This document shows, one piece after another, positions 17,868 through 19,660 of a stretch of 64,000 nucleotides of DNA. The notes under the pieces were generated by a model. That model was not told the origin of the DNA. It made no database searches and saw only the letters and a list, made by a program, of their open reading frames with translations. Source of the DNA: Chryseobacterium sp. H1D6B (GTDB taxonomy: Bacteria; Bacteroidota; Bacteroidia; Flavobacteriales; Weeksellaceae); the NCBI RefSeq assembly GCF_029892445.1, contig NZ_JARXVJ010000001.1, positions 2,232,001 through 2,296,000 of the forward strand, written 5' to 3'. Within the stretch, counting starts at the first letter, position 1; the number at the start of each line of letters is the position of its first letter. The position numbers and the translations under genes were made by a program.

Positions 17868-17978
17868 TTATTGATATTTATCTAATTGAGATTCGTCTAA
17901 AGGTTCATTAAGTTCCCGATAAAATTCAGTTCTTAATATTGATAAATATCTGTCGAATTTTTGAATTATTTCGTCCAT
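17868..17978 (-). pseudogene. Truncated N-terminal gene fragment, SMI1/KNR4-like at best
   Basis: 36 codons from the ATG at 17978, MDEIIQKFDRYLSILRTEFY then RELNEPLDESQLDKYQ and stop. After a one-base frame change the sequence continues IKLNDKSWDLYM and stops, so it looks like a decayed gene rather than a mature peptide. The LNEPLDESQLDKY...L...W layout recalls the start of SMI1/KNR4 (SUKH) proteins, but this is weak. It lies 24 bases after the attC-like palindrome at 18002-18128, where the next cassette of an array would begin. Confidence 0.35.
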
Positions 17979-18001
17979 TCGTTTCGTTTTGTAGTATTGC
18001 T

Positions 18002-18128
18002 GCTAACGGCAAAGTATAAGCGTAGCACGGGATTTCGAAACGATTTACTTTCCGTCACTCACTTACTGAAAGCCAAAATACTCAACTTTAGCCGATCAGC
18101 CGCATTACGCTTATATAAATGTTACCTG
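18002..18128 (-). repeat. attC-like imperfect palindrome behind the 70-residue gene
   Basis: About 125 bases with ends GCTAAC (18002-18007) and GTTACC (18121-18126), and matching inner arms TATAAGCGTA (18015-18024) and TACGCTTATA (18106-18115). Between them lies a middle with smaller dyads. On the minus strand it begins inside the stop codon of the preceding gene (AGG-TAA-C) and ends with GTTAGC 24 bases before the next ATG. Terminal TAAC/GTTA sites, imperfect long-range pairing, length, and a stop codon embedded in the site are all features of integron attC sites. No integrase is in the window. It could instead be an unrelated dispersed palindrome of Flavobacteria. Confidence 0.5.
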
Positions 18129-18334
18129 CGTTTATTTTTCATTTTCCGGGTGTTCATAAGACAGTAATTGCAAGCTCTATCTTCTTTATATTCAATTTTA
18201 TGTTCGGATAGAAGTTGTACAATTATTTCTCTGGTTTCATTTTCATCAAGACCAAATTTTTCTCCAAGGTCAATTTCATTTAACTGACCATTATTTTTTA
18301 TTAAAGCGTTGTAGTATCTCTCTTTATTTTCCAT
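18122..18334 (-). CDS. Small winged-helix-like protein
   Basis: 70 residues: MENKERYYNALIKNNGQLNE, then a helix-turn-helix-like IDLGEKFGLDENETREIIVQLLSEHKI and a basic, Cys-containing tail (CNYCLMNTRKMKNKRR). It could bind nucleic acid, but the family is not recognised. It overlaps the methyltransferase gene by 11 bases and so is translated with it. Its stop codon is part of the attC-like palindrome, as in a cassette. Confidence 0.6.
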   Translation of the reverse strand: MENKERYYNALIKNNGQLNEIDLGEKFGLDENETREIIVQLLSEHKIEYKEDRACNYCLMNTRKMKNKRR

Positions 18335-19163
18335 AATTCGTTTGTTTTTTTACTGCGATCATCATATGTGGACTGAATGGTAAAAGATAACTGTCGTTTT
18401 CTGTGAATTGTATAAGTGCTAGCAGTGTTTTTTTCTTTTCGTCATTTAACATATTGGCAAAGTAATCCTTGTCCAACCAAGCCATACCTTCAACTGCATA
18501 AGTATTTAGATAGGTTAATTCCTGTTTCATAAACTCTTCTTTTAGCTGTTCAGGTCTGTGATAATATGCCTCAGCTAAAAGCCAGGGAAAATCATCCGGA
18601 GGATTATGAATTCCTGTTGTTAATTCCTCCTTGCACATTTGGAAAAATGTTTTTTTGTGAATGAGACCATTTAGAAGTCCTGTCAAGGTTGATGCAGTAT
18701 AGTTAATTGCAAATCCCAAAATGATTCCGTCATTTTTTAGAACCCGTTTCGCCTCTTTAATAGCTAATTCTCTGTCTTCTTCTTTTTGTAGATGATAGAG
18801 AGGTCCATGTAAAATAATCAGGTCTGCAAAATCATTTTGAAAATCTAAGCTTTTAGATTCGCCCAAGTGAACAGAAAATTTATTTTTTAATTTACCAGCT
18901 CTGTTTTGAGCAATTTTTATATGTTTAGAAACGGGTTCCACTAAATGAACCTGATGTCCTTTATTTGCAAGCCATTCCGAGTACTTACCCGTACCACCTC
19001 CAATATCGATTATTTTTGAAGATGATGAATAAATATGTTTTTCTATGAGTGACTTAATTCTTTCAAATTCAAATATGCCCATTCCTTTATCGAGTCTGGT
19101 CTCTTCTGATGCTTTATTATAAAATACTTCTATATTTCTGTCTATTAACTGCTTGCTTTTCAT
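18324..19163 (-). CDS. Class I SAM-dependent methyltransferase
   Basis: 279 residues from the ATG at 19163 (a start at 19187 is also in frame). The SAM-binding motif I is clear, IIDIGGGTGKYSEWLANKGH, followed by VHLVEPVSKHI (acidic residue at the end of strand 2), FADLIILHGPLYHL (motif post II) and AKRVLKNDGIILGFAINY (motif III region). This is a methyltransferase_11-type enzyme. The C-terminal part with FFQMCKEELTTG and WLDKDYFANML resembles small-molecule methyltransferases; the substrate is unknown. It forms a two-gene unit with the downstream 70-residue protein and has a candidate promoter about 225 bases upstream. Confidence 0.85.
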   Translation of the reverse strand: MKSKQLIDRNIEVFYNKASEETRLDKGMGIFEFERIKSLIEKHIYSSSSKIIDIGGGTGKYSEWLANKGHQVHLVEPVSKHIKIAQNRAGKLKNKFSVHLGESKSLDFQNDFADLIILHGPLYHLQKEEDRELAIKEAKRVLKNDGIILGFAINYTASTLTGLLNGLIHKKTFFQMCKEELTTGIHNPPDDFPWLLAEAYYHRPEQLKEEFMKQELTYLNTYAVEGMAWLDKDYFANMLNDEKKKTLLALIQFTENDSYLLPFSPHMMIAVKKQTNYGK

Positions 19164-19660
19164 TTTTAATCCTTGTATTTTTATCACTTATTGGAATGTT
19201 AAAAACATAGAAAAAGTGATAAATCAATCGATTCGTGATCAATTGTTTTTGTTTAAAATTTGATGAAATAACTGGATATGATTATCTGTGCACAAAAAAC
19301 AGAAAGATTTCTATGTGCAAATTACTCGTTTTGTCGAGATTGTCTTTTTAAGAAAGACGCAGATAATATGTTGAGTTAATATAACAGACGACAAATATAG
19401 AAATTTGTGATTAATTCTTTCTGATTTTTTGCTTTTAATTGCAGATGGTGGCAAAATACTTAAATGTACCAGAAATAACCTTTATGTAAAACATCAGTTT
19501 TACTACTAGATACAAATAACCTAGATTGATTATAGACACATAATTTTTATATTTTTGATTTGGTACATTCAAATATATAGTTGTCAAAAAAATATCCGTA
19601 TCTCTATTTTACTTAATGGCTCTTCGTAATTAATCAATAGCATATCAAACCTATCAATCA
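19164..19660. promoter_or_regulatory. Gene-free 497-bp divergent region with a -7 box
   Basis: No coding remnant or RNA is recognised. On the minus strand TATATTTG lies at 19392-19399, followed by TCGTC, a good match to TAnnTTTG. It would give the methyltransferase message a leader of about 220 bases. Nothing comparable is certain for the plus-strand gene at 19661. Confidence 0.4.

Follow-up and report, generated by a model that had tools for sequence, protein, structure and literature searches.

An attC-type site in Chryseobacterium that very probably belongs to a Bacteroidota-wide integron family with an I2-less integrase

Between a 70-residue gene and a truncated reading frame, the genome of Chryseobacterium sp. 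H1D6B carries a long palindrome, which raises the question of whether it closes a mobile gene cassette and, if so, to which recombination system it belongs. A first-pass annotation of the window (the whole 64-kb stretch of DNA analysed here) had proposed an integron attC-like site from its anatomy, and that anatomy could be recovered in full. The GTTACC and GCTAAC ends lie at 18121-18126 and 18002-18007, the inner arms pair as described, the element measures about 125 nt, the TAA of the 70-residue ORF (18122-18124) falls inside the R''-like end, and the ATG at 17978 opens a frame of 36 codons. The locus comprises the following features.

18002-18128, minus strand: attC-type site, identified from its sequence, its blastn relatives and two covariance models, R1 and R2
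18123-18121, minus strand: AAC of the R'' box GGTAAC
18007-18002, minus strand: R' box GTTAGC, with its GTT at 18007-18005
18015-18024 and 18106-18115: inner arms of the site, TATAAGCGTA and TACGCTTATA, 10 nt each
18005-19444, minus strand: whole gene cassette of about 1.44 kb, delimited by a putative G^TT crossover at both ends
18324-19187, minus strand: ORF 1, class I SAM-dependent methyltransferase of 287 aa (Pfam Methyltransf_11, E 4.7e-16), conserved in locus L007
18122-18334, minus strand: ORF 2, 70-aa protein from the ORF list, with its stop codon inside the R'' box
17868-18004, minus strand: start of a second, truncated cassette, opening with GTTAGCAGCAATACT and holding the 36-codon frame MDEIIQKFDRYLSIL...
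19445-19590, minus strand: possible divergent attC-like site of a preceding cassette, arms ATATTTGAATGTACC and GGTACATTTAAGTAT, 80% identical to L180 6363-6500

Taken alone, the palindrome is unremarkable: the window holds one, against a mean of 0.23 and a maximum of 3 in 60 Markov shuffles, and its minimum free energies give z-scores of -0.4 and -0.2. The significance of the element comes from its relatives. An Rfam search of the window gave no match and, since blastn against its own genome returned the element itself and nothing else, a covariance model was needed to follow it further.

Over 59 relatives, blastn found one full copy, in the congener G005 (L007; E 3.6e-23, 79% identity), which carries the same cassette of methyltransferase and small ORF. 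The homology between the two loci ends on the 3' side at the core GTT (CCGTTA/CCGTTG) and begins on the 5' side at CTGCAATTAAAA, a break lying within about 4 nt of the expected cassette start. Both ORFs are kept as a unit in G005, as expected of the single cassette they had been proposed to form, and this unit stands there in a different context, not at the fixed position that would have spoken against gene exchange. Another unit, closed by a second site, follows it. Further afield, a Riemerella anatipestifer plasmid carries a relative of the element (blastn 3e-14) after lnu(I). That gene is part of an array that also includes aadS, tet(X), blaOXA, estT, aph(3') and others, most of them likewise followed by similar elements. 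No exact-pattern match was found in viral contigs.

The borders of the window cassette are somewhat worn. Its 5' boundary is the CTGCAATTAAAA at 19444, where the R'' complement ACCTGCG predicts a start of GTTACCTGCAATT, and the core there is partly decayed, with GCCACCATCTGC in place of GTTACCTGC. An exact empty site was not found in G024, G241 or G035, because the region is rearranged. In G024, the segment 19445-19590 continues into ATTGTTACCTAAATG without the methyltransferase cassette; its assignment as a divergent attC-like site is tentative, since neither R1 nor R2 matches it. On the other side, the start of the truncated cassette fits the GTT(N)7-A pattern of cassette starts, and neither model finds a closing element for it downstream in the window. 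The 70-aa protein has a single, sub-threshold Pfam match (TFIIE_alpha, E 0.0018) and is possibly winged-helix-like. An inverted repeat (ATTATCTGYGTC/GCACAGATAAT, 19264-19378) lies inside the cassette upstream of the methyltransferase ORF and is conserved in G005.

The first covariance model, R1, was built from 12 elements including that of the window, which makes its score of 94.5 bits for the window site circular. A second model, R2, was therefore built from 20 elements of other genomes, leaving aside those of the window, G005 and lnu(I). It matches the window element at 27.1 bits (E 0.0017) and nothing else in the 64 kb; the G005 copy reaches 63 bits, and the modest value for the window copy is due to small indels. 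Both models of this family, used in place of a generic attC model, thus match the site that had been claimed to close a cassette, and we conclude that it is a slightly decayed but genuine attC-type site at the end of one. The earlier attC reading holds as to the type of site; membership of the known IntI/attC family, as set out below, is rejected.

Similar sites behind other genes, which the first-pass annotation had recommended seeking, do exist in the same genome. Besides the window element, R1 finds two at 808-811 kb and four or five at 4271-4281 kb. Within each cluster (808.3-810.9 kb and 4271.5-4281.0 kb) all sites lie on the plus strand at ORF ends, and R2 scores them at 46-68 bits, with one weak at 17. 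Both clusters have the make-up of a CALIN, which lacks an integrase gene and has two or more sites separated by less than 4 kb, while the window element is solitary. A simple palindrome finder was abandoned in favour of the model after giving equal numbers of matches in shuffled and real loci around relE.

Across 148 Bacteroidota genomes, the covariance model finds sites in 80. Cassette arrays, in which every ORF unit ends in a site and the sites all point the same way, are seen in relatives and in the window genome itself. The arms covary in 102 distinct sites, with two to four pair types at most positions; because the alignment was fitted to the model structure, absolute percentages lean towards the model, but the switches between pair types are there in the letters themselves. 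Three positions carry fixed A.C mismatches on the top strand, which are G.T pairs on the bottom strand. When 54 sites were reconstructed in circle form, the bottom-strand hairpin was the more stable in 52 (-35.2 versus -30.7 kcal/mol), a bias that disappears in shuffled sites and is also absent from the fold of the window copy. Set against the canonical attC layout, these sites have AAC...GTT, a purine after GTT in nearly all cases and the arms; the RYYY/RRY consensus is not strictly followed.

Many of the genomes with such sites also encode a tyrosine recombinase that matches the IntI profile TIGR02249 at about positions 2-180 and 240-315 only, and so lacks the IntI-specific I2 region (about 181-239). 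The insert seen in the IntI of L081 is missing from 14 aligned Bacteroidota proteins. Five of these integrases score 169-221 bits with TIGR02249, below the NCBIfam cut-off of 265 bits, which was exceeded in one of 19 genomes, by the true IntI. Their best relative of solved structure is 2a3v, annotated as integron recombinase IntI4; they also score 191-236 bits with the Xer profile NF040815 and carry an IntI-like C-terminal SPLD motif. They measure about 280-580 aa and usually bear an N-terminal 'WS...W..P' module, which could do the work of the I2 helix when the folded site is bound. L068 (4047-5105), L074, L075 and L076 have this module in one to three copies at the N-terminus, and PF18974 (DUF5710) matches that of L076 (E 1e-6). 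In a tree of 37 proteins, four IntI form one clade (100/100) placed among the Bacteroidota integrases with modest support and apart from Xer, a placement that long branches make tentative.

The integrase and the sites go together. Full-length homologues occur in many genera of the window's family, and none were found in viral contigs. Of the 148 Bacteroidota genomes, 50 have the integrase and 46 have both, so that sites occur in 46/50 integrase-positive versus 34/98 integrase-negative genomes (Fisher p 5e-12). At 28 of 40 integrase loci there are sites, 79 in all, and 77 of them occupy the strand opposite to the integrase on its 5' side, even though the flank searched was 2.8 times longer on the 3' side (about 403 kb versus 146 kb); of the other two, one is on the 3' side and one on the same strand. 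Among the 12 loci with no site, the contig extends for less than 700 bp on the 5' side in five. Other lineages (L068, L077) have the integrase and the array in the same direction.

These loci have a third component. Just before the first cassette start, as located solely by its pairing with the first R'' box, nearly every integrase locus shows the attI-like motif TTYGTATATTTGAG[A/T]; it occurs within 350 bp at 24 of the 40 loci and nowhere else in 590 kb. The relatives of the window site thus display the anatomy of an integron: array, adjacent integrase and attI. A blind scan of viral contigs gave 23 matches to the motif, none with an integrase by tblastn and one only (L205) with an R1 site nearby, so in large collections the motif by itself is no specific marker. 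Matches were also seen in 6 of 60 genomes of the same genus, for instance at G241:C33:110502 and G001:C69:17294 (L183-L189).

The cassettes themselves carry a trace of how they may move. In 79 of them, the 7 nt after GTT at the cassette start pair with the cassette's own R'' box at 484 of 553 positions, against 246 +/- 11 after permutation; pairing at 6/7 or better is reached by 68/79 with their own R'' and by 8/79 with the preceding site. Circularisation between G and TT predicts this pairing. In intact members of the family, the I2-less recombinase would excise and insert circular cassettes by crossing over between G and TT of the core, at an attI (TTYGTATATTTGAG[A/T]^GTT) about 150-260 bp 5' of its divergent gene, each cassette bringing its own attC-type site behind its ORF or ORFs. 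The recombining form of the site is probably the folded single bottom strand.

In the window genome we found no integrase of this family and no attI match, Xer-like recombinases being the only ones present, in agreement with the earlier remark that no integrase was nearby. The two small clusters and the solitary cassette would thus be a CALIN-like remnant, mobile in trans if at all, and the window copy is presumably inactive at present. A partial tyrosine recombinase frame of 136 aa lies at the end of the only contig (L013, L094; G000:C1:4555940-4556200), with a 281-aa relative 10 kb away.

Taken together, the evidence leaves us highly confident that the window element is an attC-type recombination site marking the 3' end of a cassette in a Bacteroidota-wide integron family. 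Against this reading stand the imperfections of the window copy, namely the 27 bits obtained with R2, the missing bottom-strand bias and the decayed 5' core, as well as the failure to find an integrase of the family or an attI in its genome, or an exact empty site, and the 12 integrase loci with no site. Four other explanations were weighed. It is improbable that the element is a Xer/dif-type (pdif-like) module recombined by the housekeeping XerC/XerD instead of a linked integrase. The purely Xer-like complement of the window genome, the closeness of the integrase family to XerA in profile scores and the distance of about 0.5 Mb between integrase and array in G128 would fit such a module, but a dif site of 28 bp does not resemble these sites, which measure about 124 nt, have covarying arms and are strongly linked to, and oriented with respect to, a dedicated integrase and its attI.

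Even less probable is an ordinary attC from an integron of the known IntI type that was taken up from another phylum. The R''/L''/L'/R' layout and core GTT are those of attC sites, and IntI genes do occur in a few Bacteroidota relatives such as Balneolaceae L081, but with R1 a class 1 integron plasmid, a Geopsychrobacter genome and a Proteus record that contains IntI yield no match (best E 6.2), the sites accompany the I2-less integrase in nearly all of its Bacteroidota carriers (the 46/50 above, from one sample), and no close DNA relative was found in plasmids or phages from outside the Bacteroidota. There is very little to recommend a chance or regulatory palindrome, a terminator or attenuator after the 70-aa ORF: the unremarkable statistics of the palindrome would suit it, but about 90 nt of loop separate the arms, there is no T-run, the 79% identity in the congener stops sharply at the outer end, relatives follow unrelated genes, and an independent model matches the element. 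A miniature transposon or transposon end can practically be dismissed, for while inverted repeats recurring in many genomes are to be expected of one, the copies are found where genes end, all oriented alike within an array and spaced like gene units, no target-site duplication was seen at the boundaries compared, and transposition does not predict the pairing of each cassette start with its own site.

Returning to the integron family, an experiment by others bears directly on it. A unit made up of 27 nt, the aph(3')-IVb CDS and 140 nt entered the R. anatipestifer chromosome by transformation, beside relE-hthR and without flanking homology, and an attC-like fold was suggested for its 3' region (PMC13148043, 2026). 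Integration of this one cassette-sized unit was precise and independent of homology. The aph(3') cassette of plasmid NZ_CP073240, included in the array analysed here, is predicted as 28 nt, CDS and 139 nt, the same total flank of 167 nt as published with an offset of one base, and the attC-like 3' region of aph(3')-IVb almost certainly belongs to the same site family. Genome G128, taken to be R. anatipestifer, has a relE identical to the plasmid's and a full-length integrase at 510 kb, which would act in trans. Its contig ends (G128:C1, 2.149 Mb to 0.04 Mb; L231-L234) hold a superintegron-like array of about 41 sites on one strand, about 0.5 Mb from this integrase, the only full-length one found; the last ~8 kb of the array region occur at both contig ends, probably as an assembly overlap.

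Other resistance genes are found in the same setting. In G081, G201 and G100, lnu(I) and tet(X) come after the integrase, and in some the next gene is ere(D) or one resembling a class D beta-lactamase; next to other integrases, aadS and aph(3') cassettes are found. The 'xerD/TnpF' gene before tet(X3)/tet(X5) on Acinetobacter plasmids, known from the xerD(TnpF)-tet(X3)-res-orf1-ISVsa3 segment (PMC7494873), is a truncated member of the integrase family, its product sharing 47% identity with the integrase over the latter's C-terminal two thirds. On Acinetobacter and uncultured plasmids (L190 4001-6073, L192 4001-6180), an attI-like TTTGTATATTTGAG follows this gene, tet(X) opens with the intact cassette start GTTATGTGCCATTTTTGAATGACAATGCG, and in L192 a 3'-truncated site lies behind tet(X3). 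In the literature searched we found no earlier link of this segment to integrons.

The wider picture is a likely one: phylum-wide Bacteroidota integrons whose I2-less integrases handle attC-type hairpins and which may be the stock of IntI, with tet(X), lnu(I), aadS, ere(D) and aph(3')-IVb having begun as cassettes and the 'xerD' of tet(X3) being a piece of integrase. If so, a major platform of gene capture has been overlooked in a dominant phylum, and the origin of tet(X) and other Flavobacteriia resistance genes as mobile units, whose mobilisation has been called poorly understood (PMC7494873), would be explained; the cassettes include clinically important genes such as tet(X). The I2 helix has been held exclusive to and required for the single-strand hairpin recombination of integrons (PMC7790495), a claim that would become directly testable. 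In the literature searched, the Bacteroidota pass for a phylum almost devoid of integrons: IntegronFinder 2.0 reports one complete Bacteroidota integron, in Salinibacter ruber (PMC9024848), and we found no description of an I2-less class from this phylum in the open-licence literature, preprints excluded.

Compared with known systems, the study of aph(3')-IVb integration (PMC13148043) gives the attC-like fold only, while the Acinetobacter xerD(TnpF)-tet(X3) segment (PMC7494873) is a truncated and relocated fragment in which the start of tet(X) is intact. XerA, XerC and XerD share superfamily and catalytic fold with the Bacteroidota integrase, but they are solitary housekeeping enzymes acting on dif, whereas the latter occurs in linkage with arrays and attI and has the SPLD motif. 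The closest likeness is with the IntI integrons (class 1, Vibrio superintegron), which have the same divergent integrase, attI and one-orientation array of ORFs with palindromic sites, the same core GTT, R''/R' pairing in the circular form and bottom-strand fold bias, as well as resistance cassettes and integrase-less, CALIN-like clusters. In contrast, the Bacteroidota integrase has no I2, scores below the TIGR02249 cut-off, bears an extra N-terminal module and is codirectional with its array in some lineages, and its sites have R pairing extended to about 15 nt, a fixed A.C mismatch and asymmetric spacers (about 3 versus 6-7 nt), alongside an attI consensus of their own. These features support a Bacteroidota type of integron in which the integrase lacks I2, the attI is its own and the attC architecture is distinct.
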